Below, one piece after another: positions 16,965-63,411 of a stretch of 64,000 nucleotides of DNA (position 1 is the stretch's first letter; each line of letters opens with the position of its first letter). The stretch is taken from positions 1 through 64,000 of the forward strand of contig JAQUYC010000001.1 in NCBI GenBank assembly GCA_028692105.1, given 5' to 3'. A program made the position numbers and the translations under genes. A model generated the notes under the pieces. The model made no database searches, was not told the DNA's origin, and saw only the letters and a program-made list of their open reading frames with translations. The DNA is from Eubacteriales bacterium. GTDB lineage: Bacteria > Bacillota > Clostridia > Peptostreptococcales > Anaerovoracaceae.

Positions 16965-19900
16965 TTATATTATTATGTTTTCAAGACGTTTTAGTATTTC
17001 AATGTCGCCTGCAATATATTCGGAAGGTGCCATATTGATATCATAACTCATATCGCCTCCTTTATCCGGATACCTGTTTGACAGAATTGCTTCAGCTTGC
17101 CTGTTTAAAGTCAGTTTTCTTTCATATACGATTTGATATTCTTCTTCAATGGTTCTAAGAATGTTCTTTGCATTTACCAGACAGGTCATAGAAAAATCAT
17201 ATAATGCTGCCTTAGGTGTATCCATTAAAAAGTTTGGCGCAACATAAGGAAGAATAAGATTTATGGATGGAAGAAATCCTGCGCCTTGGCGCACGTCCCT
17301 CAAAACGCTGTCTCCCCCGATAAAGGGATACATGTTGGATTCTACGAACCATGATCGCAAATTTGGAATAAAATAAACGCTTTCAACCTCTCGGCCTTGT
17401 AGTGTCATCAAATCCTTTCCCCTGCCGGAAAGTAATCCAACGATAATTTTGCTCACCTGTAAGTTCTCCTGCCTGAACAGGGGGTCAAGCTTCTTAAGCC
17501 GGTATCCTTTATGAAGCAGGTCATCTACAAGAAACACAGGCCTTTGGAAGGATTTTATTGTCCTGATCTGATAGACCAACGGAGAGTAATTGGGAAATTC
17601 AGTAATCTGAAACAGTGTAATTGAAGGTTCAAACCGTTTATCGGTATGAAGTGACTTGGTGACAGTATTCGGAACAACCATACCGCTCAGAATTTTTCCG
17701 AATGGAACACACATATATTCTCCTAATTGTCTGACTGCAAGGGGTTCTTTGGGGACATTGTTGCTTTTGGTTATCAAATCTACGATTCTATGATGCATAA
17801 CTTTTGAATCAAATGATAAAATCAGATTTCCCGGGTAAAGCTTTGTTAAAGAGTACTGCATTCTCCTGTGCGCTTCTTCTATTGCATTCAGAACTCTCAC
17901 TCTCCCGTTGAATGGTTCCTTCACGATCGTGCCTATATCCTTATGCAAAGTAACGGGGTATTTCATATCAACGGCATATATATGATCTTCGGCTCCATTC
18001 ACTTTAAGCATCTGAAAGCCCTGTCTCTTTAATAAAGAAGAAAGCCTTGCATCTATTTCTCCGATATGGCGGTGATAGATGGCAAAGGTAAAACCGTTCT
18101 CCAGGCAATATGCAAGAGCTTCTGTCAATACGAGCTGATCTGTATTATTTATTGATGCAGTATTTGAATAGGCTATGCCGCCCAAAACAACTATCTTGCC
18201 TGACGTTATCCCCCGTATATGCGAAGCAAGATTGATGCTGCCGAATTCTTCAAACAGTTCCGACATATTAACTTCATGGAAAGTAGCAATCGCAACCGGG
18301 ATGTCATTACTGCCGCCGTCTCTTATCAATATGGCATTTACGCTATTTCTTGCAAGATAAGATTTTATGTTCTCCCTAATATTTTGCTCCTGCAGCAGCA
18401 ATGTTTTGGTCAGTTCATCGATCAGCTGCCCGTTAAATTTCTTAATGATTTCAAACCTTATCTGACGTGTACTGAATACGTGTTTATATTGCGGCTCTCT
18501 TAAATAAAGGCCGTTATCATAGATATAGCGTTCAGCTAATGGTTCAATCAGGTTTGAGATGTCACGGTTATAATCTATGTTGTCTCTGATCTGTGTTGAG
18601 CTTATTTCTTTAAGATATGGCGGAAGCTTAAGTTCGATCAGCTTTCCGGTCAGAATCGAAGTATTATGACTTTCTATATTACTTTTTTGATTTTCTGCAT
18701 CCATGGTTCGTTTGAATATAATATGATGAAACCCATGGATGGAATGCTCCTGCGGAGGAGCTTTATAACTCGAAGCATTCTTAATAACATCGCTTCCCAC
18801 GACTATATAAATTTCCCTGCCCGGAAACAGTTCTTTCAGTTTTCTCAGATCTTCCGGGTTTGAAAGGTTGATCGGGATGTCATCAGGGAAAAGATAAACA
18901 TCCTTTTCATCCGCTTCCGACATACTGATTATTTTCCTGCGAATTAGCTTAGGCTGTGTTTTTTTCGACCAGGAAAACTCATCGATAGCTAAATACACCT
19001 CATAACCCAGGTCTCTGATTTCCTTAACGATACCCTTATGACCCAGTGAAAACGGATCAAATGTTCCGGGAAAAAAGGCAATTTTATCAATTATCGGGAT
19101 GCAGATCTTTTTATTCAGGAAAAGGTAATCGGATAAAAATCTATAAATATGATTGAGAGAAGCTGCAGCGTTGAAGAAAGACAGAGCAGTTTCCTTTTGG
19201 TCTGTAATCAGAATAAGCATCTTTTTATACATTTCTTTAAAAAAAGAATATTTATCTTCCAATGTTAATTTTGAGGAGCCAAAGAGAAATTGACCTATCA
19301 CTAAAAAGGCTTCCTGACTGATCATATAGTTATAATTTGATAAACCCTTAAGGATTAAGCCTATGATTTCATCTCTACGCTTGATATAAACGTCTTCACT
19401 TTCATGAAACCGGTCTTTGTATTGAGAATAATTCTGCAGCATAATACCAAGCGTATTAAGCGTAACTGACCCTATACGCTCATTCGTGCTGTTCAGAAGC
19501 CTTCTGAAATCGTTCATCAATTCGTCCAGTTCATTGGGGTGCAGATGCAATGCCAATACCCCCAAATAGTCAGGAAGATATTTTGAAAACTCGTATTGCC
19601 CTATTTCCAAGCCTTTACTAAGTTCCACAGCTATTTCATTCCTCTCCGGAGGAGTCAGCTTGGGAATAATGGAAAGCAGCGCTTGACCTGCTGTGTGCCG
19701 TACTATTACTCGATCACTTACCTTGATCAAATTTGAAAAGTGTGCCGCAACTTGAAGCAGCTGTTTATTTTCCCCCAAGAGTATCTGATTCAGTAAAAGC
19801 TCTATATTTACAACCTTTATTACCCATGGTGTTGCAGCTTTTAAGTTTTCCAGGAATATTTCTGATATGGCATTTGCATCCTGATAAATTGTATACGCTA

Positions 19901-21827
19901 AATTTCTTTCATCTTTCACAGGAAGCTTAAGATCCCTGAATATTTCATTTTTTAAATATCTTATGCTCAACACATCATCTTGACTGGAATATTTCAAACA
20001 TGAGTTGAATAAGGCTAAAGCTTCCTTTTTGTGATTATCACTTTCGGAAAGATACTTTATGAAACGATGCACGGCAATTTGAATTTCCAGCGAGTCTCTG
20101 GAAGCCGTTCTGGTCGTAAAATCCATGAGTACATGAATATCTTCATCGGTGCACAGTGGCAAAGGCAAGTCAAGTGTTGAGTCCAACAGGATAAATGCAG
20201 TTGAATCAATCACTTCGGTATTTTCATAAAACCGAAGAAATGATTTCAAATAATTTTCACGGTCCTCTTTTTTGCATCTTTTTAGTGTGGCTCTCAGAAC
20301 AAACTTCAGAGTATAACCCAGCCATCTCTTATGCTGGTCTGTTATCTTATGATCCGGGAAAATGATAGCTTCAAGATATTTCTCCCACAGTCTGATACTT
20401 GTTATTTCATCCTGCTCTCTTATAGCACCTTCCGGCAGCTCCTTTCGATATTCCTCATCATAATGTACTATGATGTTTCCTATCAATTGTGCACTCTGCC
20501 TTCGAATATCTCCTTCTCTATGCATCAGAAGTTCATATAGAAAGTTCAATGTCATCATCTTCTGCTTTTGTGTCATGTAAGTAAAATATTCTGCAAAGAT
20601 GTTCATATAAGCTCTGATATTTTTCCAGTTGCTTTCACTTCTTGCCGCCTCCAAAACATCACCAAAAGCAGTTTCACTGTTAAACTTGTTCATGACGTCA
20701 ATATTGTGCCGTATCGCAAGGTTTTTAAGACTTCTGACTGCTTCATCCGAAGTATATAATGCCGGATCTTTGCTTTCCCGATTCCTAAGATCCCGTGTGG
20801 TCAAATCCGTATTGACTCCGAGGTCTATCATAAAATCTTCAAAGTCCTTCAGTTTATTATAAACCTTAATGTACCTGTCTCGTTTTGCATTATCCACATT
20901 GTCAAGCTTGTTGAGTATAACATCAAAAGAATCCTTAAGATCATAATATTTAACGATTTCTCGGCCTTGTCGGTCATTTATGCTTTTAACCCTGAAATCT
21001 GAGTATATTAAAACAAGAGATTCTGCTGACAGGTTTTCAAGTTCCAAATCCCATGTTGAATGATTCGAGGCTATATGTCCAATAGTCGGCATACCATTTT
21101 TTTTAAAATATTTATCTGTGTAATAATAATGCAGATAAGGGATTCGCTCGGCTTCTTCCGGCTTACAGCCATACTTCCCTATATCGTGCCCTATCGCAGC
21201 GCCGGAAACAAGCGCAAGGTCAATAGGAACACCTGCTTGAAACAGCTGTCTTCCTATATGCAATGAAATATAATGGACACCGCTCACATGAGACAAGGTC
21301 TTGTATCTCGTGATTTCCTGGCCTATTCTCATAAATTCATAGATATAACTTTCTCGGAAAAGTCGGATAAGATGTCTGTATTCTTCAGCTGATTCAAAAT
21401 TATTTGTCTCTTGTTCCGAAAGCATCTCAATATGAATGCCGGGGTCAAACGTCTTGTGTTCTGATTCATAGTGCAAAAATGTTCTCAGAACCTCCAGATA
21501 AAATAGTCCGCCCCTCTCACTTGCGGATGTAGTTATGTCGGTGATATTTTCCGGGAATATACGGTTAAGAACGTAATCATAGGTATATGACAGCCAGCCA
21601 TTTTCAGGTTTTTCGGAGATAGAATTCATTATTGACTCGCAAACTTTCAATACGTCTATACAGCTAACCGTGTCTTGCTCAATGATGAGGCTGATTCTTT
21701 CTATCCAATCATCTTTTTTAATAAGAAGAAGCATCTTCCTTTTAGACAGCCTGATTGTTCTTAAAAAATCCTTTTCTGTCAGATTGCTTACAAGTTCTCT
21801 ATACGCCTGCTCAATTCTCTTCGGCAT
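16965..21827 (-). CDS. Giant multidomain protein: HD, helical repeats, nucleotidyltransferase, PRTase-like
   Basis: At 1,620 aa (start MPKRIEQAY, chosen for GGAGGTATAATAAC upstream) this is the largest protein in the window. Domains in order: a helical N-terminus; an HD-type phosphohydrolase region about 180-280 (GVHYISLHIG, AIGHDIGKYG, then IASNHS and YSDFR as ligand candidates); about 600 residues of alpha-helical HEAT-like repeats (350-900); a CoaD/NadD-type nucleotidyltransferase about 915-1090 with FFPGTFDPFSLGHKGI, VVGSDVIKNASSY and ISSTQIRDNI; a possible acetyltransferase-like section 1130-1270; and a phosphoribosyltransferase-like section about 1330-1530 with PVFLVDDLLHKGYRL. Such fusions suggest nucleotide or cofactor (NAD/CoA) processing, but no reaction can be assigned. 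It begins the three-gene operon. Confidence 0.8.
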   Translation of the reverse strand: MPKRIEQAYRELVSNLTEKDFLRTIRLSKRKMLLLIKKDDWIERISLIIEQDTVSCIDVLKVCESIMNSISEKPENGWLSYTYDYVLNRIFPENITDITTSASERGGLFYLEVLRTFLHYESEHKTFDPGIHIEMLSEQETNNFESAEEYRHLIRLFRESYIYEFMRIGQEITRYKTLSHVSGVHYISLHIGRQLFQAGVPIDLALVSGAAIGHDIGKYGCKPEEAERIPYLHYYYTDKYFKKNGMPTIGHIASNHSTWDLELENLSAESLVLIYSDFRVKSINDRQGREIVKYYDLKDSFDVILNKLDNVDNAKRDRYIKVYNKLKDFEDFMIDLGVNTDLTTRDLRNRESKDPALYTSDEAVRSLKNLAIRHNIDVMNKFNSETAFGDVLEAARSESNWKNIRAYMNIFAEYFTYMTQKQKMMTLNFLYELLMHREGDIRRQSAQLIGNIIVHYDEEYRKELPEGAIREQDEITSIRLWEKYLEAIIFPDHKITDQHKRWLGYTLKFVLRATLKRCKKEDRENYLKSFLRFYENTEVIDSTAFILLDSTLDLPLPLCTDEDIHVLMDFTTRTASRDSLEIQIAVHRFIKYLSESDNHKKEALALFNSCLKYSSQDDVLSIRYLKNEIFRDLKLPVKDERNLAYTIYQDANAISEIFLENLKAATPWVIKVVNIELLLNQILLGENKQLLQVAAHFSNLIKVSDRVIVRHTAGQALLSIIPKLTPPERNEIAVELSKGLEIGQYEFSKYLPDYLGVLALHLHPNELDELMNDFRRLLNSTNERIGSVTLNTLGIMLQNYSQYKDRFHESEDVYIKRRDEIIGLILKGLSNYNYMISQEAFLVIGQFLFGSSKLTLEDKYSFFKEMYKKMLILITDQKETALSFFNAAASLNHIYRFLSDYLFLNKKICIPIIDKIAFFPGTFDPFSLGHKGIVKEIRDLGYEVYLAIDEFSWSKKTQPKLIRRKIISMSEADEKDVYLFPDDIPINLSNPEDLRKLKELFPGREIYIVVGSDVIKNASSYKAPPQEHSIHGFHHIIFKRTMDAENQKSNIESHNTSILTGKLIELKLPPYLKEISSTQIRDNIDYNRDISNLIEPLAERYIYDNGLYLREPQYKHVFSTRQIRFEIIKKFNGQLIDELTKTLLLQEQNIRENIKSYLARNSVNAILIRDGGSNDIPVAIATFHEVNMSELFEEFGSINLASHIRGITSGKIVVLGGIAYSNTASINNTDQLVLTEALAYCLENGFTFAIYHRHIGEIDARLSSLLKRQGFQMLKVNGAEDHIYAVDMKYPVTLHKDIGTIVKEPFNGRVRVLNAIEEAHRRMQYSLTKLYPGNLILSFDSKVMHHRIVDLITKSNNVPKEPLAVRQLGEYMCVPFGKILSGMVVPNTVTKSLHTDKRFEPSITLFQITEFPNYSPLVYQIRTIKSFQRPVFLVDDLLHKGYRLKKLDPLFRQENLQVSKIIVGLLSGRGKDLMTLQGREVESVYFIPNLRSWFVESNMYPFIGGDSVLRDVRQGAGFLPSINLILPYVAPNFLMDTPKAALYDFSMTCLVNAKNILRTIEEEYQIVYERKLTLNRQAEAILSNRYPDKGGDMSYDINMAPSEYIAGDIEILKRLENIII

Positions 21828-21898
21828 GTTATTATACCTCCAAAGTGTCATACGAAAAGTGTTGCTATGGCTTTGTTTATATTAAGTGTATTACCCTT

Positions 21899-31766: not shown

Positions 31767-34118
31767 TTACCTGATCGGACAAACTCCGCTTTCACAGCCT
31801 TCATCGCCAATATCGTACTCCACTTCTTCCTTTTCATACTTTGATATCAGTGATGGTACAAAGGGATTCATAACTTCAACCCTTCTTTTGTATTCCTCTT
31901 CCGATATTTCCTCGAAAGGAAGCAATTCATAAAAATTATCCTCAAAGGACAGGAAGGAAAGTGCAACTGTATCTTCCCAATTGTCCCAAACCCATTGCTC
32001 GACTTCTCCCCATTCATTATCCCTTACATGTATTGTTATGGAACAGTTGTGCTCTACGTAGTGTGTCATGAACATCTTATAAATTTCGAGCTGTTCAATT
32101 GCACTGACATCAGCCTTGAATCTTTTACCCGGAGCCCTTTCCGGGAATTCCACCACTTTAGTTACACAGGTATCCGGATCCTGTCCAACCTCCGGGAAAA
32201 CAGGATATCCAAGCTCTTCACATACTTTTGTAAGCGGATCGTCGCTGCTGATCCTGACTCTTCTAATGTAATAAGGCGCATGGGAGAAATGAACCCCGCT
32301 CGATACTACCGGAAGAAGGCTTAGAGTACCCTCCGGCTTTATCGTAGTTATAAGGAGCGGCTCCTTCTGTCCCAGCTCTTTGGCATAATCTACAGCAGCT
32401 CTCCTTGCAGTTTCCTTCAATTCTCCAAGCAGCTTTTGCTGCTCTTCTTTGTCCATATCCAGTGCATTTACCAGGTCCTGCCAGCCGGTCAAAGAGCAGC
32501 CTAAAAGCTTATCTCTTTGCTGTACAGCGTTCCACTCAGGAATTTCCAGCTCGGTGCATGTCATCCGGTATCCGGCTCTCGCACTGAGCTTCTGTGCTTC
32601 CATCAATCCTTCATGGTCAAGAGCACCGTCCTTAACAAACCCCATAACATTGACAGTAGTAAGATTGCACAGGCCTTTTGAATCCAATAGGATTTCAGCG
32701 CATGGGTTTACCCCCTGGAAGTTTGGACGCCGTTTCGCTCCGGCAGCTTCGTTAACCCAACCCGGTTCGCCTGAGTATCTCATCTGCTGCAGGTGCCAAT
32801 GAAGCTCCTCCCTCGTAGGTTTTCTTGTATAATAGATCGAATTATTGCTCATCTGTCGGTGTGCGATCTCCGTATCCAGCACCCATTTCTCATCGGTTTT
32901 CTTATAAAGCTCACTCTTTGCCTGTATACACTCTTTGTCATCCTGATCTATCAGTACGATTTCTGCTGTTCTGCGAACGCCTCCTACCACAACGTTTTCA
33001 CCGATAATATTCGCTATATCAAGACAATCAATCGATTTCAGCTTCACTTTCGATGATGTAGATCTATGCTTTGACTTTTCGATGATACGGTATATTTTAA
33101 CAAACATGTTCTTCATGCTGGAATGGCCGCTGGCTGTTCCGCCGAAGGTTTTCAGCTTCTCTCCTTTGGATCGTACATTGTCATAGTTCAATATGACGGT
33201 CTTTATCTTTCTGTACTCTGTACTGTACAATACCTTGAGAAAATAATCCATCGACTGAACCCAGCCCTCTTTGCTGTCACCTATCGTTATCTTTATAGTG
33301 TCATTATGTGTGAATTCCAAGGAAGTGCTGTCCTGGCGCAGAGTGCGAAGCATCGGTGTATATGACTCATGGATGACTTCGACATCCGTTCTGACGGGCG
33401 GGAGCTTTTCAATATCAGATTTAAGCACCCTGACTCCGACACCCGAACCAACCATAAGAAGATAGAATATATCACGGAAAGCAGCGAAGCTGTCAACAAC
33501 TTGAAACGAGCAGTTATAATTGGACATCGGATAAAACTTAGAAACATCCGTACTCCCTACCCAGAAAGTTCTTCCTGATAAAAATTGCTTCAGATCAAAG
33601 ATATTTCGATAGAGTTTTTCCGCCTCTTCCTTTGAAGTTGGTACTAAACTGCAGTTATATTCTACAGAGCGGCGTACAGTTTCCCACCAGTATTCCCGGC
33701 GCATTTCTTCAGGGATCCATCTTGAATATGTACGGTAGTATACAAAACTCCCGAGTTGGTTCATAGGAGACGGTGCGTGCTTATATTTGCTTACATAATC
33801 ATCAGAAATTATTCTCCCGTCTCTGCGTTTTCTTGCATCCCTGGTCTTATCTCTTTCATAACGGTATATTATAAACTTTTTAGCTGCATCCTTCCTGTTG
33901 CTTGCCATCAGATAGTCTTCCACCAGGTCCTGCAGGTCTTCAACATTAATAGTTCTTTCTGATCTTTCCACCTGTTTTTCAATTGCGGAAGCAATATCAC
34001 CGGACAATTTATAATCTATACCCGGCGTTGTTTCAAGCATTGCTTTCTCTATCGCAGTTTTTATTTTTTCACTATTGAAGGTGACTTGGGTGCCATCTCT
34101 TTTAATAACAGTTTTCAT
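31767..34118 (-). CDS. nrdJ: Adenosylcobalamin-dependent ribonucleoside-triphosphate reductase (class II)
   Basis: Makes deoxynucleotides from ribonucleoside triphosphates using a B12-derived radical. The 783-aa monomeric-type protein has an N-terminal ATP-cone (VIKRDGTQVTFNSEKIKTAIEKA, residues 3-95), the RTPR catalytic core with MSNYNCSF (first redox cysteine), VNPCAEILL (radical cysteine) and GLCNLTTVNV (second redox cysteine), and the C-terminal shuttle pair in GCESGVCPIR (C-x4-C), as in the Lactobacillus RTPR. Presence of corrinoid adenosyltransferase at 46.8 kb fits the cofactor need. No cobalamin riboswitch was seen upstream; promoter TTGAAA-N17-TATAAT lies 45 bp ahead of the start. 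Confidence 0.95.
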   Translation of the reverse strand: MKTVIKRDGTQVTFNSEKIKTAIEKAMLETTPGIDYKLSGDIASAIEKQVERSERTINVEDLQDLVEDYLMASNRKDAAKKFIIYRYERDKTRDARKRRDGRIISDDYVSKYKHAPSPMNQLGSFVYYRTYSRWIPEEMRREYWWETVRRSVEYNCSLVPTSKEEAEKLYRNIFDLKQFLSGRTFWVGSTDVSKFYPMSNYNCSFQVVDSFAAFRDIFYLLMVGSGVGVRVLKSDIEKLPPVRTDVEVIHESYTPMLRTLRQDSTSLEFTHNDTIKITIGDSKEGWVQSMDYFLKVLYSTEYRKIKTVILNYDNVRSKGEKLKTFGGTASGHSSMKNMFVKIYRIIEKSKHRSTSSKVKLKSIDCLDIANIIGENVVVGGVRRTAEIVLIDQDDKECIQAKSELYKKTDEKWVLDTEIAHRQMSNNSIYYTRKPTREELHWHLQQMRYSGEPGWVNEAAGAKRRPNFQGVNPCAEILLDSKGLCNLTTVNVMGFVKDGALDHEGLMEAQKLSARAGYRMTCTELEIPEWNAVQQRDKLLGCSLTGWQDLVNALDMDKEEQQKLLGELKETARRAAVDYAKELGQKEPLLITTIKPEGTLSLLPVVSSGVHFSHAPYYIRRVRISSDDPLTKVCEELGYPVFPEVGQDPDTCVTKVVEFPERAPGKRFKADVSAIEQLEIYKMFMTHYVEHNCSITIHVRDNEWGEVEQWVWDNWEDTVALSFLSFEDNFYELLPFEEISEEEYKRRVEVMNPFVPSLISKYEKEEVEYDIGDEGCESGVCPIR

Positions 34119-56438: not shown

Positions 56439-58019
56439 ATGTCATTACGTGATTTGAATGCAAAGATTGAGGCCGGATTTTTAAAATTTATAAAGAACAG
56501 CAAGATCCTGAACGGCAACGAATTATATATAGAGATCAATCAAGATAATATTCCGGAGCTCGGCGTATATCTAAACATTGATTTGGGTTGTTCACTTGTT
56601 TCTTTGTTCGCAACAGATGAAAGAGAATTTAATCATTATAGACTGTATTATTCATTTGCCGAAAGACAATCCGGCAGTCTTATAATACTGACTTCTGTTG
56701 TTGATCAAAACAGCAGCACTTTTATGTCTATAAGCACAACTGTACATGCCGCAGCGCGTTATGAGCAGGAGATTCATGATTTATTCGGATTGATCCCCAT
56801 AGGTCATCCTAATCTGAAAAGGCTTGTTTTACACGGCAACTGGCCTGAAGACAATTTTCCGCTGAGAAAGGATTTTCCCCTTTCTCATAAACCGCAGACT
56901 GTAGATTGCATATCTGAATTTACAAAAATAAAAGGGGAAGGTGTTTTTGAGATTCCTGTCGGACCTGTTCATGCCGGAATAATAGAGCCGGGTCATTTCC
57001 GGTTCAGTGTAGCCGGAGAACCTATTTTTAATCTTGAAGCACAGCTTTATTTTGTACATAAAGGCATAGAAAAATTATGTGAAGGAAACAATCCTGAAAA
57101 GTGCTACTATATCTCCGAACGTATTTCCGGAGATGAAACCATAGCAAATTCGCTTGCTTATTGTCAGGCTATAGAGAAAATAGCCGGAATTAATATACCT
57201 GAGAAAGCCGAATATATTAGGGTTCTGTTTGCCGAACTTGAACGTATGACAAGTCACTTTGGAGACCTTGCCGGCATCTGTATTGATGTTGCTTATGGTT
57301 TTGCGGGCTCTCAATTCAACATGCTTCGCGCTTGGTCTTACGGAATGGCAACTCAGCTCTGCGGAATGCGCTTCCTGCGCAGTGTCAACAGATTAGGCGG
57401 TGTAAGAAAAGATTTTATTTCAGGGAAGGAGAAAAGCCTTCTTGAGCAGCTGAACAAAATCCAGAAGGAATTGGAAGATACGGTCGATATCATTATTAAT
57501 AGCAGTATGTTCAACGATCGGATAGAAAATACAGGAATATTGGATACAAAAATTGCTTTTGATTTAAACGCCGTAGGACCGGCAGCACGTGCTTCGGGCA
57601 TAGCAAATGATATGAGGAAACAATTTCCTTATGCTGCATATCCTAAACTAAAGTTCAAGGTTCCCGTTTATACGGACGGGGACGTCAACAGCCGTATGAA
57701 GGTCAAAATCAAGGAAGTATTTGAGTCGATAAACCTTATGCGTCAAGTGATTGAAAATATGCCAGCCGGTAAAGATTTTGAACGGCTGGGACCGTTGCAT
57801 CCGCATAAGGAGGCATTCGGCATCACAGAATCTCCAAGAGGTGAAAATGTACATTGGGTCATGACAGATAATAATGGCAATATTTTTCGCTATAAGATAC
57901 GCACTCCTTCCTTTTGTAACTGGCCTGCCCTCTGCTATGCAGTTGCCGGTAATATCGTGCCGGATTTTCCGTTGATAAACAAAAGCTTTAACCTGTCCTA
58001 TGCAGGGAATGATTTGTAA
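56439..58019 (+). CDS. Ehr-type large subunit (NuoC-NuoD/HyfG fusion) without NiFe ligands
   Basis: A 526-aa protein with a NuoC-like domain about 20-150 (YEQEIHDLFGLIPIGHPNLK, EDNFPLRKDF) fused to a NuoD/hydrogenase-large-subunit domain. In NiFe hydrogenases a RxCGxC motif and a C-terminal DPCxxC bind the metal. Here the first site reads SERISGDETIANSLAY (cysteines replaced by Ser and Glu), and the chain ends DFPLINKSFNLSYAGNDL with no DPCxxC. Two cysteines near CNWPALC are not in the ligand positions. It is therefore not a hydrogenase, but belongs to the energy-converting hydrogenase-related group. Four bases separate it from HyfF. Confidence 0.88.
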   Translation: MSLRDLNAKIEAGFLKFIKNSKILNGNELYIEINQDNIPELGVYLNIDLGCSLVSLFATDEREFNHYRLYYSFAERQSGSLIILTSVVDQNSSTFMSISTTVHAAARYEQEIHDLFGLIPIGHPNLKRLVLHGNWPEDNFPLRKDFPLSHKPQTVDCISEFTKIKGEGVFEIPVGPVHAGIIEPGHFRFSVAGEPIFNLEAQLYFVHKGIEKLCEGNNPEKCYYISERISGDETIANSLAYCQAIEKIAGINIPEKAEYIRVLFAELERMTSHFGDLAGICIDVAYGFAGSQFNMLRAWSYGMATQLCGMRFLRSVNRLGGVRKDFISGKEKSLLEQLNKIQKELEDTVDIIINSSMFNDRIENTGILDTKIAFDLNAVGPAARASGIANDMRKQFPYAAYPKLKFKVPVYTDGDVNSRMKVKIKEVFESINLMRQVIENMPAGKDFERLGPLHPHKEAFGITESPRGENVHWVMTDNNGNIFRYKIRTPSFCNWPALCYAVAGNIVPDFPLINKSFNLSYAGNDL

Positions 58020-58098
58020 TGAAATAAAAATATTACCGTTAAAATGCATCGATATAAGGTTTTTACGTATGCGTAATAGCGAAAAGATAGAGGTAACA

Positions 58099-58851
58099 AT
58101 GTTTAAAATGCTAAAAAAGATAATAAAATATCCAAGGTTGACGCAAGATTATCCGAACAAGCCGCTTAAGTCGGGAATGTTTATAGGCAAGCCTGAGATT
58201 GATCAGACTAAGTGCACGCTTTGCGAAGAATGTATCAGTCGCTGCCCTTCAGAAGCGATCATAATGGATTCATCAGATCATACCATTGATATCAATTATG
58301 GCAGCTGCATCTTCTGTACCTTATGTGAAGAAGTCTGTCCTGAGGGGGCTATTGCAATGACTGATAAGATTGAACTTGCAGAAAAAGAAATAAGGAGTTC
58401 GGATCAGTCAAATGAATTGATAGAAAGTCAGCTGCAAGCAAAAATTAAAAAGGTTCTCGGCAGAAGTCTTGCTATCAGAGAAGTTGATTCGGGATCATGT
58501 AATGGTTGTGATTATGAAATCAATGCCCTTAATAATTCTATTAACGATATTGAAAGATTAGGTATCCACTTTGTAGCTTCACCGAGACATGCAGACATGT
58601 TGCTGGTGACGGGATGTGCTGTCAGAAATATGGAGTCAGCGCTTATAAAAACCTATGAGGCTGTACCGGATCCAAAATTGGTAGTAGCGGTAGGAGCCTG
58701 TGCCTGCAGCGGAGGGATTTTTAAGGACAGTTACGCAACATCAAATGGAATCGGCACTGTTATTCCCGTAGATGTTTGCATACCCGGATGCCCGCCGCAG
58801 CCTCAAGCGATACTGTATGGAATATTAAAGGCAATCGACAGGATTAGATAA
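58099..58851 (+). CDS. Ehr-type iron-sulfur subunit: 2x[4Fe-4S] ferredoxin plus NuoB-like small subunit
   Basis: A 250-aa fused subunit (ATG at 58099 with AGAGGTAAC; the track start lies in the upstream gene). The first half is a polyferredoxin with CTLCEECISRCPSEAI and CIFCTLCEEVCPEGAI, giving two 4Fe-4S clusters as in HyfH/NuoI. The second half is a small subunit with SGSCNGCDYEINALN, VTGCAVRN, GACACSGGIF and CIPGCPPQPQAILYG, retaining the proximal cluster ligands. Thus an electron path to the large subunit is intact although the NiFe site is lost. Its 3' end overlaps that of the convergent gene by 8 bp. Confidence 0.9.
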   Translation: MFKMLKKIIKYPRLTQDYPNKPLKSGMFIGKPEIDQTKCTLCEECISRCPSEAIIMDSSDHTIDINYGSCIFCTLCEEVCPEGAIAMTDKIELAEKEIRSSDQSNELIESQLQAKIKKVLGRSLAIREVDSGSCNGCDYEINALNNSINDIERLGIHFVASPRHADMLLVTGCAVRNMESALIKTYEAVPDPKLVVAVGACACSGGIFKDSYATSNGIGTVIPVDVCIPGCPPQPQAILYGILKAIDRIR

Positions 58852-59566
58852 ACCCTCTTCCTTTCAATATTACATTGCAGTAGTAACAGTTTTTATATTC
58901 CGCTTTGCAGTTCCTGCAGTCAGAATACGGTAATACCGTTCTGTCGTCTACGACAACAAAGAATCCTGCGCCGGATTTTATAGGACGCATAATGCTATCA
59001 TCGGTCACTTTTACTCCGATTCTGGCCCCGTCCAGCAATTCAAAGAACCTGCCGGTCTGATTGATATCCATGCCATAAAACCCCGGTCCGAAGTAATCAA
59101 GAACAGTAAAGCCATCATTTGCATTGCATGCCGGACTTTCTAAAAAATCCTTTTCTACATGTTGTTTTAAAACAGTAAGCCCTGCATCCACGTATGAAGT
59201 TCCCCAAATATCTGCATAAAATTGGTCTAAGACCGGCGCATCTTCGTGTTGTTGAAGGTTGCCTGCTGTTATAATAAAGGCATAAACCGCTCTTACATGG
59301 CTCGGATTCAGACGTCGGAACACATTGCATTCAAAGCTTATGCCCTCTAATAGCACAGTGTTGTTTTTTATTACCGCATCGTGGAATGAGGATATAATAG
59401 CCTGAAGTGTTGTGCTATCCCGCATTTTTCCCTTTGTATCCAGACCCTGCTTGAGCAAACGTCTGTCTTTATCCCCTGCTCCATTTAAGCATGAAATTTT
59501 TATAAAGTACTCCGTTGCTAAAGCATCGACTTCTGACCCGGTTATTTTCACGATTTCATTATTCAT
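58844..59566 (-). CDS. MetH-activation-domain-like protein with C-terminal Cys4 motif
   Basis: A 240-aa protein (ATG at 59566 with AGGAAGAAATAAATTG; the TTG start of the track is weaker). The section LDYFGPGFYGMDINQTGRFFELLDGARIGVKVTDD-type text (GFYGMD...F, LLDGARIG) corresponds to the PGxGDWP..Q and IGV region of vitamin-B12-dependent methionine synthase activation domains, which bind SAM. The tail DCRNCKAEYKNCYYCN has C-x2-C-x6-C-x2-C, able to bind an Fe-S cluster or zinc. It lies 35 bp downstream of the RACo-like gene. A part in reactivating an oxidised corrinoid protein is inferred; the corrinoid partner is not in this window. Confidence 0.65.
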   Translation of the reverse strand: MNNEIVKITGSEVDALATEYFIKISCLNGAGDKDRRLLKQGLDTKGKMRDSTTLQAIISSFHDAVIKNNTVLLEGISFECNVFRRLNPSHVRAVYAFIITAGNLQQHEDAPVLDQFYADIWGTSYVDAGLTVLKQHVEKDFLESPACNANDGFTVLDYFGPGFYGMDINQTGRFFELLDGARIGVKVTDDSIMRPIKSGAGFFVVVDDRTVLPYSDCRNCKAEYKNCYYCNVILKGRGFI

Positions 59567-59600
59567 CAATTTATTTCTTCCTGTATCCTCTGATTTTGAA

Positions 59601-60914
59601 TCAATCTTGAGGAAAATACATGCCGGTCAGAAATTGCTTTTCAAAATCAGGTTGTAAAGCAAGTTCAATGTGTTCCACTTCACCTGCCAGCAGAATGGCA
59701 TCTCTTTTCGCTTCTTCGGACAGAAGCATCATGCCGGCTCCTGTCCCCGCAGCATTGCCTATGTGTTGGATTCTCTCTTCATTTACATCGGGTAGCAGAC
59801 CAATTCGCAAAGCGCTTTTTACATCAATATAGCTGCCGAAGGCACCGGCAAGCAGGATCTCATCTATCTTTGAAACCTCTTGGCCGAGACATTCCAGCAA
59901 TACTAAGATACCGGCATATATTGCGCCCTTAGCCAGCTGAACTTCCCTGATATCCTTTTGATTTATAACGATATCCTCTCCTTCATCTCTCCATGACAGA
60001 ATGAATTCATTACCGCGTACCCCGGTTCTCAAGCGATTTATTAAATCATTATGAATTCCTTTTTGCAAAGCTTCTTCTTTTGAAATCAAATTCCCCTTGG
60101 AATTGAGAATCCCGGCATTCAGCATCATTGCGACTGCATCGATAAGACCGGAACCGCAGATCCCCTTAGGCGCTTTGCCTCCGATTACTTCGATACCTAA
60201 TTTCCCTCCATCGATTTTAACTCTTTCTATAGCACCATCCGATGCCCGCATTCCCCGGTAAATACGGGCTCCTTCGAACGCAGGGCCTGCGGCAGTTGAA
60301 CAGGCAAGAATCCTCCCTTTGCCGTTCAGTACGATCTCACCATTAGTGCCGATATCTATTACTAAGTTTATACCCTGTTTCTTTTTTATCCCTGAAGCAA
60401 TCATTACTCCCACTATGTCTGAGCCTACATGCCCGGCAATATTCGGAAGCACAAATATTTCGGCACTGTCATTCATATGCAGCTCCATTTCCTCGGCGGT
60501 TTTTATAATTGGTCCTTTGAATGCCGGTTGAAAAGGAAAACTTGCCAGCATGGAAGGATCCATCCCTAAAAAGAGATGGCTCATCGTTGTATTACCCACT
60601 ACGGCGGCTTTGCGAATCCAATCTCTCTCAACCTTCATGTTTTGCGAGAATGTATCCAGCATCTTATTGCAGCATCTGATTATAAGCCGCTGCATTTCCC
60701 GGAGATTCTCCGGGTTTCTGTCCGCACAATTAATTCTGGATATGACGTCTGCACCAAACCTGCTCTGCGGATTTGTGTCAGCAAGCATATCCACCATTTG
60801 ATTTTCAGAAAGGTTCCAGAGATATCCGACAACAGTTGTAGTTCCGATATCAAAAGCAACCCCATACCGTTTTTCTTCCGAATTTTTCACTTCTTCCAAA
60901 ACATAATTCATCAT
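59601..60914 (-). CDS. RACo-type ASKHA ATPase (corrinoid activation factor-like) without ferredoxin domain
   Basis: A 437-aa protein of the DUF4445/RACo family, whose members use ATP to drive reduction of inactive Co(II) corrinoid proteins. The ASKHA fold is seen at once: YGVAFDIGTTTVVGYLWNL (phosphate 1), VIDIGTNGEIVLNGKG (phosphate 2), STAAGPAFEGARIYRGM, ICGSGLIDAVAMMLNAG and LLAGAFGSYIDVKSALRIGLLPD. The roughly 120-residue N-terminal [2Fe-2S] domain that supplies electrons in RACo is missing; the ASKHA starts at residue 16. GGAAGATAAAA precedes its ATG. The four-cysteine partner downstream may substitute. Confidence 0.8.
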   Translation of the reverse strand: MMNYVLEEVKNSEEKRYGVAFDIGTTTVVGYLWNLSENQMVDMLADTNPQSRFGADVISRINCADRNPENLREMQRLIIRCCNKMLDTFSQNMKVERDWIRKAAVVGNTTMSHLFLGMDPSMLASFPFQPAFKGPIIKTAEEMELHMNDSAEIFVLPNIAGHVGSDIVGVMIASGIKKKQGINLVIDIGTNGEIVLNGKGRILACSTAAGPAFEGARIYRGMRASDGAIERVKIDGGKLGIEVIGGKAPKGICGSGLIDAVAMMLNAGILNSKGNLISKEEALQKGIHNDLINRLRTGVRGNEFILSWRDEGEDIVINQKDIREVQLAKGAIYAGILVLLECLGQEVSKIDEILLAGAFGSYIDVKSALRIGLLPDVNEERIQHIGNAAGTGAGMMLLSEEAKRDAILLAGEVEHIELALQPDFEKQFLTGMYFPQD

Positions 60915-60944: not shown

Positions 60945-61487
60945 TTATTCTACAACCTTTGAGGCATATCGTTTATTGTGAAATGAAAGATTCAGGCCCA
61001 CAAGCAAGACATTGAGGCCCTGCATCACGAACAGTATTCCCACCAGTACGACTGAGGAAAACGTAAACAGGATAGTATTGAAAAATGAATAAATACCAAC
61101 CGCAATGCTCAGAATGCCAAAAGTTAAAATCATCTGCCAGTTTGCCATGTCTGATTTTCTGAGAGAGTGCGTTTCCACTACGCGAAGAATCCCTGAAAAA
61201 ATGACCCATAATCCAAAAAATACAGGAATTGAAGCATCTGCCAGCAGTTGATTGGACACTACAAGAAAACCCAGAATAAAACTCATTATACCCTCAACAA
61301 AAAGTAGATCTGATATTTCTTTCTTTCTGCTTATCAATAGATATGACAGAATTCCGCTCAATCCGGAAAAAACCATTGCCGTTCCCAATATGAACGCCAT
61401 GGCAAGAAAGGTAACTCCCGGATTTGCAAAACAAAAAACTCCTGTGAGGATCAGTATGACTCCTGTCGCTAATTTAAGTATTCTCAC
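60945..61487 (-). CDS. HdeD/DUF308 family membrane protein
   Basis: A 180-aa protein of six membrane helices with the internal repeat of DUF308/HdeD (VILILTGVFCFANPGVTFLAMAF and VVVSNQLLADASIPVFFGLW). In E. coli HdeD aids survival at high cell density and low pH; here it is a family label only. Start is GTG with AGGAGGCATACA. It is 30 bp upstream of the RACo-like gene and may be in the same transcript. Confidence 0.87.
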   Translation of the reverse strand: MRILKLATGVILILTGVFCFANPGVTFLAMAFILGTAMVFSGLSGILSYLLISRKKEISDLLFVEGIMSFILGFLVVSNQLLADASIPVFFGLWVIFSGILRVVETHSLRKSDMANWQMILTFGILSIAVGIYSFFNTILFTFSSVVLVGILFVMQGLNVLLVGLNLSFHNKRYASKVVE

Positions 61488-62205: not shown

Positions 62206-63411
62206 CTACAACAATGGAATTACCGATACATAAACACCTGTAAGTATTGCTGTTGTGATAACACCGCAGATATTAGCTCCCATCGCAAATTGCAGGATTA
62301 TTGCACGTTTATTGACCAGAGCGGCTTCATGCTGAGCTATTTTTGCAGTGGTCGGTACACATGAAACCCCGGCAATACCAATGACAGGATTAAACTTTTT
62401 GCCGTTGATTAGATAAACAACATAACCCCCAATTATTCCGCCGATTCCGGAGAGTCCAAGAGCGATTACTCCAAGTATAAGAAGAATCAAAACCTTTGGA
62501 TTCAAAAGTGTGCTGGCTTCACATAATACACCGAGCATCAGGCCGAGGAAGAATGTTGCCGTATATAGGAAAACATCATCAAGTAGTCTGACATACTTTG
62601 TCATACCGGATTCTTTTATCGCATTGCCAAGGAAGAAGCTTAACAATAACGGAGCAGCCACCGGTAAAAGCAGGCTTAAAAAGGTACAGGCAATGATATC
62701 AAAAGCAATTTTCTCCCCGGAGGTAATATCACTCTTTTTTGAAACCTTAACTGTCAGCTCTCTAAGATGCCTTGGAACCATTGCTCTGATAAGGAAGGGA
62801 TAAGCACCGTAAGTCAGGCTCAAATACAAGTATGCGATAACTGTAATTGGAACAAAAATCTCCGGTGCCAGCATCAGGGCTGTAAAAAGAACCATCGGTC
62901 CGTCGGCCCCGCCGACGATAGATATGGCAGCTGCCTCACTGTAATTCAACCCCATTGCGACTGCTATGGGAAATGTAGCCACCGAGCCTAATTCGGCAAA
63001 TAACGCAATGAGCATGCTGGTAAAAGGAAATCGCAGGACATTTCCGACATCTGCCAGAACTCCTATACCCATAAAAACCAAACATGCAATCAGGTTATTA
63101 CCAAATGCAAACGTGTAAATCGGCTGAAAAACATCTATTTGCAAAGCATACATAATTGATTCTGTATCAGAAGCAAGAGTATCTGTAAAAAGTGTGCCGG
63201 TTTCAGTCGGCGAGAAAAATAAAACACCTGCATTTACAGCAGCCATACCAAAACCCATAGGGATCATGATCAACGGCTCCAAAGTACCTCTTTTACCCAA
63301 CCAAACAAAGATAATGCCAATGATAATCAACACAACTCTGGCAATGGCAATTTTGGGTTCCTGATAAGCAAGCGTACCAATGCCTTGAAATAATGTAAAT
63401 AAGAATTCCAT
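62206..63411 (-). CDS. Sodium-translocating decarboxylase, beta subunit (GcdB/OadB/MmdB)
   Basis: The integral membrane subunit that couples decarboxylation of a biotin-carried carboxyl to Na+ export. The 401-aa protein has about ten helices and the family text LTVKVSKKSD-like cytosolic segment, NLIACLVFMGIGVLADVGN (Na+ site aspartate), AAISIVGGADGPMVLFTALML, and GIAGVSCVPTTAKIAQHEA near the C-terminus. The gene set BCCP - two tiny membrane proteins - beta is typical of glutaconyl-CoA, methylmalonyl-CoA or oxaloacetate decarboxylases; which one depends on the alpha subunit, outside this window. Glutaconyl-CoA is attractive given glutamate metabolism but not proven. Confidence 0.93.
   Translation of the reverse strand: MEFLFTLFQGIGTLAYQEPKIAIARVVLIIIGIIFVWLGKRGTLEPLIMIPMGFGMAAVNAGVLFFSPTETGTLFTDTLASDTESIMYALQIDVFQPIYTFAFGNNLIACLVFMGIGVLADVGNVLRFPFTSMLIALFAELGSVATFPIAVAMGLNYSEAAAISIVGGADGPMVLFTALMLAPEIFVPITVIAYLYLSLTYGAYPFLIRAMVPRHLRELTVKVSKKSDITSGEKIAFDIIACTFLSLLLPVAAPLLLSFFLGNAIKESGMTKYVRLLDDVFLYTATFFLGLMLGVLCEASTLLNPKVLILLILGVIALGLSGIGGIIGGYVVYLINGKKFNPVIGIAGVSCVPTTAKIAQHEAALVNKRAIILQFAMGANICGVITTAILTGVYVSVIPLL

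Follow-up and report, generated by a model that had tools for sequence, protein, structure and literature searches.

In the corrinoid activators that have been characterised, the ATPase itself bears the redox centre, which is either one [2Fe-2S] cluster or two [4Fe-4S] clusters (PMC6739815). In the activases RACo, AcsV, AE (OdmC) and RamQ (DUF4445, PF14574) an N-terminal [2Fe-2S] domain and a linker are usually joined to an ASKHA ATPase part. The two genes described here lie in a stretch of 64,000 nucleotides (hereafter the window; contig JAQUYC010000001.1 of assembly GCA_028692105.1, an Eubacteriales bacterium of the family Anaerovoracaceae) and encode a RACo-type ATPase, which has the whole ASKHA part in common with these activases but neither the [2Fe-2S] domain nor the linker, and a stand-alone protein of the MetH-reactivation fold with a four-cysteine (Cys4) tail, referred to below as Act (58844-59569). 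The RamA ATPase of methylamine methanogenesis (TIGR04270) is also homologous, and the ancestral locus of the window was likewise a methylamine/pyrrolysine system. RamA carries a C-terminal ferredoxin domain that is not present in the window ATPase, which is accompanied by the separate Act protein.

Several described systems tie ATPases of the same family genetically to a methionine synthase (MetH) lacking the reactivation domain PF02965, as is proposed here. The DUF4445/RamA-like proteins are co-fit with such a MetH in Desulfovibrio and Phaeobacter (PMC5764234), and in Ruegeria the same RamA-like and DUF1638 proteins rise during growth on N-osmolytes, e.g. glycine betaine (PMC12478193). A second protein is required in the Phaeobacter system, but it is DUF1638 and not a MetH-fold Cys4 protein; the Phaeobacter ATPase keeps a ferredoxin domain and that of D. 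vulgaris has two DUF4445 domains, neither of which describes the window ATPase. The closest described counterparts of Act are TM0269 of Thermotoga (1j6r), a stand-alone MetH reactivation protein, and the fused MetH reactivation domain (PF02965), with which it has the fold and the PG[YF] loop region in common. Act differs from them in lacking the arginine of RxSPGYGD, in carrying a C-x2-C-x6-C-x2-C tail, in scoring below the Pfam cut-off and in adjoining a RACo gene rather than metH.

The two genes probably encode an ATP-dependent corrinoid reactivase whose main client is a MetH without a reactivation domain and which was inherited from a pyrrolysine/methylamine cluster. This reading draws on computed folds, domain losses, synteny, fusions, co-occurrence and the presence of a sole candidate client.

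The ATPase gave complete matches to Raco_middle (5.6e-53) and RACo_C_ter (2.6e-82) in Pfam, its top NCBIfam model was AcsV (E 1.2e-111), the RamA model TIGR04270 matched at 3.5e-45 and the solved RACo structures 3zyy and 4c1n matched at 1.5e-88 with residues 12-436 aligned. Fer2, Fer4 and RACo_linker gave no match in the Pfam search of the window ATPase and no N-terminal cysteine motif was found in it; the same kind of search returned Fer2 and RACo_linker for relatives L041 and L043, which served as positive controls. A hidden N-terminal domain is impossible because the open frame extends only ~10 codons upstream of the ATG, beside the DUF308 gene. The ATPase has truly lost the N-terminal [2Fe-2S] and linker domains, as had been noted earlier for the [2Fe-2S] domain, and the iron-sulphur (Fe-S) domain lost here is carried by all characterised relatives in the open-access literature. 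An ATPase without a cluster of its own is the unusual element of the pair, and no second RACo was found in the window genome.

Across 90 distinct RACo sequences the N-terminus contained Fer2 in 65 and a short C-x(3-5)-C-x2-C-x2-C motif in 18, the rest having neither, where classes were assigned automatically by hidden Markov model and motif and "neither" partly represents fusion, truncation or a divergent domain. In the RACo tree, where the nearest named relative was Sinanaerobacter chloroacetimidivorans (family Anaerovoracaceae), the window species formed a fully supported clade with G004 and G007 that lacked an N-terminal cysteine motif. This clade was nested in a genus clade with the short motif, itself sister to Fer2-bearing sequences. 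The simplest reading of this topology is that the N-terminal centre decayed from Fer2 to a short Cys4 motif to none, and the last step shares its branch with the methylamine-cluster loss described below. RACo proteins apparently without a recognisable Fer2 or short cysteine motif also occurred at L289, L293, L294 and L296 (G099, G102, G104 and G108, which are MetH-only genomes), and the ATPase's own centre may have been lost repeatedly and independently.

The second gene had been read as a MetH-activation-like core with a C-x2-C-x6-C-x2-C tail, and both parts were borne out. Met_synt_B12 (PF02965) was the sole Pfam match to Act and fell below threshold (E=0.1, 12.5 bits against a cut-off of 25). 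A profile search of solved-structure sequences with Act gave nothing relevant, the relationship being seen by fold comparison. The AlphaFold2 model (mean predicted local distance difference test, pLDDT, 87.7) matched TM0269 with Z 18.4 and 2.6 Å over 189 aligned residues and the MetH reactivation domains of E. coli, Thermus and human with Z 15-17, after which the next fold dropped to 4.8. The four cysteines (C217, C220, C227 and C230) were invariant in 18/18 aligned Act homologues (alignment A1). A scan of the genome collection gave a slightly relaxed motif in 73 of 75 Act loci, and contig ends truncate the remaining two. Canonical stand-alone Acts carry a related cysteine-rich tail. The Butyribacter intestini Act (L227:9581-10534) has an additional N-terminal "Cysteine-rich small domain" (PF04071, 1.4e-21), and Acts of similar length (~320 amino acids) were seen at L217, L221, L223, L225, L226 and L229.

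The arginine in the loop R-[FY]-S-P-G-Y-G-D is invariant among canonical stand-alone Acts (alignment A2). It aligns with RISPGYGD of TM0269 and RPAPGY of E. coli, and the human equivalent, Arg1172, is a predicted contact of S-adenosylmethionine (AdoMet) (PMC12272874). The loop of Cys4 Acts is x-F-G-P-G-[FY]-[YF]-G-M, with Tyr158 at the arginine position in the window Act, and the arginine was present in 2/82 Cys4 Acts versus 34/40 other stand-alone Acts. This pattern suggests that Cys4 Acts may have moved from AdoMet-driven remethylation to ATP-driven reduction.

Act and RACo were joined in one polypeptide in eight natural fusions, namely L182, L188, L191, L192, L201 and L218 from the scan, L027 (G018) and L232 (G331). 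Their architectures were Act-Fer2-ASKHA, Act-short Cys4-ASKHA and Act-ASKHA. The AlphaFold2 model of fusion L027 (pLDDT 86.8, predicted template modelling score 0.69) had two well-folded halves whose mutual packing was not settled by the model. Among 99 relatives, 25 had both a RACo-type Act and RACo, 3 had Act only, 24 had RACo only and 47 had neither, counts that depend on automatic gene finding in draft genomes; genomes reached via collection loci carried no completeness values. The co-occurrence of the two genes, which the earlier note had proposed to examine across genomes, was thus found in 25/28 genomes with a RACo-type Act (Fisher p 4e-7, not corrected for phylogeny). Because of the eight fusions and the strong co-occurrence, Act and RACo are considered functionally tied.

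The window genome is a 1.84-Mb draft in 51 contigs and is 97.7% complete; it was covered by protein-family searches and by direct reading of selected stretches. Neither a corrinoid protein nor a MetH-type gene was found on the window's contig, in agreement with the earlier note, which missed that the client is probably the genome's stand-alone MetH on another contig. A B12-binding search of the genome returned two proteins, a B12 radical-SAM protein and a MetH of 830 amino acids (contig C48) with S-methyl_trans, Pterin_bind, B12-binding_2 and B12-binding domains, after which the protein ends; Met_synt_B12 (PF02965) was absent from it and its gene adjoins metF. A search of the genome with PF03599 for the corrinoid iron-sulphur protein or another methyl carrier matched only MetH. 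No canonical activator was present in a 13-kb stretch around metH, whereas in many other families of the order one directly adjoins the gene, and a PF02965 search of the genome up to E=0.1 returned Act and no other activator. As the only methyl-carrying corrinoid protein found, in a genome where Act was the only reactivation-domain protein found, MetH is inferred to be the most likely client. Ten further genomes (G099, G101, G102, G104, G105, G107, G108, G109, G110 and G121) likewise combine RACo and a Cys4 Act with a MetH that lacks the reactivation domain; these were reached via Act loci and no other full corrinoid methyl carrier was listed for them. The window also encodes a class II (B12-dependent) ribonucleotide reductase with a PF21995 insertion domain (31767-34118, minus strand), so the organism needs B12 beyond MetH. 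Such a reductase carries no methyl group and would not be expected to depend on an activase of this kind.

The origin of the pair was indicated by its sister loci. In the genus-mates G001, G002 and G008 this locus also converges on the same Ehr/Hyf-like operon and consists of a pyrrolysine-dependent methylamine cluster of which RACo and act are members. The best annotated cluster, in G002, includes MttB and MtbB, each with an in-frame stop, a corrinoid protein, a URO-D-family methyltransferase, PylSc, a PylB-like radical SAM protein, CobW, PylC and PylD. PYLIS elements lie where mttB is interrupted in G002 and G008 and, in G002, also where mtbB is interrupted, and a tRNA-Pyl gene lies just after act in the three genus-mates (L035:9725-9796, L039:9909-9980 and L040:10033-10104). 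Together the tRNA-Pyl genes and PYLIS elements make up a pyrrolysine system of a Sinanaerobacter-like lineage, and the window species and two sisters have lost it at this locus. Here the window species, G004 and G007 retain only DUF308-RACo-act; neither the window nor the orthologous regions in G004 and G007 contained mttB/mtbB, a corrinoid protein, Pyl genes or tRNA-Pyl. No tRNA-Pyl remnant was found in the window, which holds no tRNA gene, and Rfam searches gave no methionine or B12 riboswitch in the window, the metH region or the G004 and G007 loci, the PYLIS elements of the relatives being the only hits. The sister loci thus indicate that the pair was inherited from the pyrrolysine/methylamine cluster and would have been retained after the cluster was deleted. 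The ratio of nonsynonymous to synonymous substitution rates (dN/dS) was ~0.14 for RACo when the window species was compared with G004, and G004 against G007 gave 0.16-0.18 for both genes, the remaining comparisons being near or at saturation, which indicates a pair under purifying selection and not decaying.

From these results we infer the identity of the client, the ATP-driven mechanism, the electron route and the metal of the Cys4 site. Act would dock on the cobalamin domain of MetH once oxidation has left the cofactor as inactive Co(II), RACo would bind Act and/or the MetH cobalamin domain, and ATP hydrolysis would make reduction to Co(I) possible. With no metal centre on the ATPase, the electron would have to come via the Act Cys4 site if this holds Fe-S; if it holds zinc, an external ferredoxin or flavodoxin would have to deliver the electron directly. 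The earlier note had read the pair as a split reactivase with the redox centre moved from the ATPase to the second protein. The corrinoid reactivase pair stood, given the fusions and the co-occurrence, as did the loss of Fe-S from the ATPase, but the relocation did not. The Act Cys4 motif was equally invariant with a Fer2-bearing RACo (L041, L043 and L046), with a RACo having the short N-terminal Cys4 motif (L035 and L045) and with a centre-free RACo, and L188, L191 and L201 contain Act-Cys4 and Fer2 in one polypeptide. A relocated ferredoxin was ruled out because RACo proteins that retain the [2Fe-2S] domain have Act partners in which the motif is no less conserved. In the window clade the Act Cys4 motif is the pair's only remaining cysteine cluster and, as the ATPase has lost its Fe-S domain, any centre of the pair must now be on Act.

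Whether the Cys4 site is a redox centre bears on the electron route, and here a close to even prospect is that it binds zinc in a structural or docking role, with electrons passing directly from an external ferredoxin or flavodoxin and RACo providing an ATP-driven conformational change only. MetH would still be the client, so that this explanation overlaps the reactivase reading and differs in the electron route alone. E. coli MetH receives its corrinoid electrons directly from an external donor of the ferredoxin/flavodoxin type, and a pattern of two CxxC pairs with six residues between them is as typical of zinc sites as it is of Fe-S sites. The equal conservation of the motif beside a [2Fe-2S]-bearing RACo also suits zinc, since the motif is then not needed merely as a substitute, and the segment between the cysteine pairs was the least confident part of the Act model (pLDDT <50 at 221-226). 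The window clade, however, kept all four cysteines of Act after its RACo had lost both earlier N-terminal centres, the G018 fusion has the Cys4 motif directly before the ATPase, in the place of Fer2 in other members, and the characterised activases carry Fe-S, as cited above. A more specific proposal, which we put forward tentatively, is an AdoMet-independent two-protein MetH reactivase in which Act would have swapped its AdoMet site for a redox-active Cys4 Fe-S electron donor and the cluster-free ATPase would give only the ATP-driven push, an arrangement that may have arisen as the methylamine/pyrrolysine system was dismantled and the reactivase was kept for MetH.

Some observations weigh against an ATP-dependent reactivase of MetH made up of both proteins. 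A Cys4 Act and MetH were present with no RACo detected in G055 (98% complete), G037 (94%) and G015 (81%), the MetH lacking the reactivation domain in all three, so the coupling of Act and RACo is not strictly obligate and Act might work without ATP in these genomes. RACo and MetH were present with no Act detected in G040, G053, G063, G074 and G085, where RACo alone may perhaps reactivate MetH, by analogy with what was inferred for Desulfovibrio. The pair and metH are on different contigs, metH was beside Act in 0/75 Act loci, and a second corrinoid protein could be missing from a draft of 51 contigs. The three Act-only genomes, and the fold shared with TM0269, would fit an Act that reactivates MetH alone by AdoMet-dependent reductive methylation like TM0269, with RACo having another or no role, but the near-absence of the AdoMet-contacting arginine from Cys4 Acts, the RACo fusions and the co-occurrence make this unlikely. 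It is more doubtful still that the adjacent Ehr-type membrane complex is the pair's client or its source of low-potential electrons; the earlier note had raised a link of the pair to this complex as a possibility from the convergent, overlapping genes. A close orthologue of the Ehr large subunit was present in 11/99 relatives, i.e. the genus and four family members, and 10 of these 11 also had a Cys4 Act, but this overlap comes from closely related genomes, and a close Ehr is absent from most genomes that have Act and RACo; an involvement of Ehr was not supported. Adjacency was limited to 4/75 Act loci, all in genus-mates, and the intervening genes vary among species: G001, G002 and G008 have the methylamine cluster in this place, and in G004 and G007 an AI-2E transporter gene, after act, separates the pair from Ehr. 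The 8-bp overlap is best explained as a product of the deletion that removed the methylamine cluster. The loss of the cluster genes, tRNA-Pyl and the RACo N-terminal cysteine motif from the locus in the window clade would also be seen if the pair were a decaying, functionless leftover, and this we regard as very improbable given frames intact in three species, the low dN/dS where synonymous change was unsaturated, the conserved DIGTTT and four cysteines, and the position of the pair as the only activase found for the only MetH.

The features of the locus are collected below. Coordinates, strands and the convergent overlap (58844-58851) were as first noted, the spacing from the ATPase gene to the Act gene is 31 bases, and DIGTTT is the first phosphate-binding motif of the ATPase, by its role in the family. 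The NuoI-NuoB-type fusion gene is a neighbour and is not considered part of the reactivase system.

Features of the RACo-act locus and its flanking genes in the window
Feature	Position	Strand	Basis
RACo/RamA-type (DUF4445) ASKHA ATPase, 437 aa	59601-60914	minus	Pfam/NCBIfam, solved-structure match
DIGTTT motif of the ATPase	60834-60851	minus	read from translation
Act, 241 aa, MetH-reactivation-fold protein with Cys4 tail	58844-59569	minus	AlphaFold2 model, fold match, alignment A1
Alternative Act starts	TTG 59569 or ATG 59566	minus	
Act loop FGPGFYGM, counterpart of AdoMet loop R-x-S-P-G-Y-G-D	59069-59092	minus	alignments
C-x2-C-x6-C-x2-C (C217, C220, C227, C230), candidate metal site	58877-58918	minus	alignment A1 and locus scan
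8-bp overlap of convergent 3' ends, Act and Ehr-type small subunit genes	58844-58851		
Final gene of Ehr/Hyf-like operon, NuoI-NuoB-type fusion	58000-58851	plus	Pfam Oxidored_q6 and Fer4
DUF308 membrane protein, directly upstream of the ATPase gene	60945-61487	minus	Pfam; same place in G004 and G007

Two other genes of the window, both on the minus strand, were of interest. A protein of 1628 amino acids (16965-21851) contains one cytidylyltransferase-like domain (residues 926-1090), the rest having no Pfam match at E 1e-4. The gene at 62206-63411 encodes a carboxybiotin decarboxylase beta subunit, the closest model being that of the Na+-transporting malonate decarboxylase (TIGR03136; 492 bits versus a cut-off of 597).

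How anaerobes with a MetH lacking the reactivation domain keep their B12 working is only partly known. The two classes of Act suggest that ATP has taken the place of AdoMet as the energy source, and they give a testable rule in which reactivation proteins either keep the AdoMet arginine and are usually located beside metH, or drop the arginine, carry the Cys4 motif and travel or fuse with the ATPase. The locus would be a case of a reactivase that outlives the pathway it came with, and it probes whether a corrinoid ATPase that carries no iron-sulphur cluster itself can still function.

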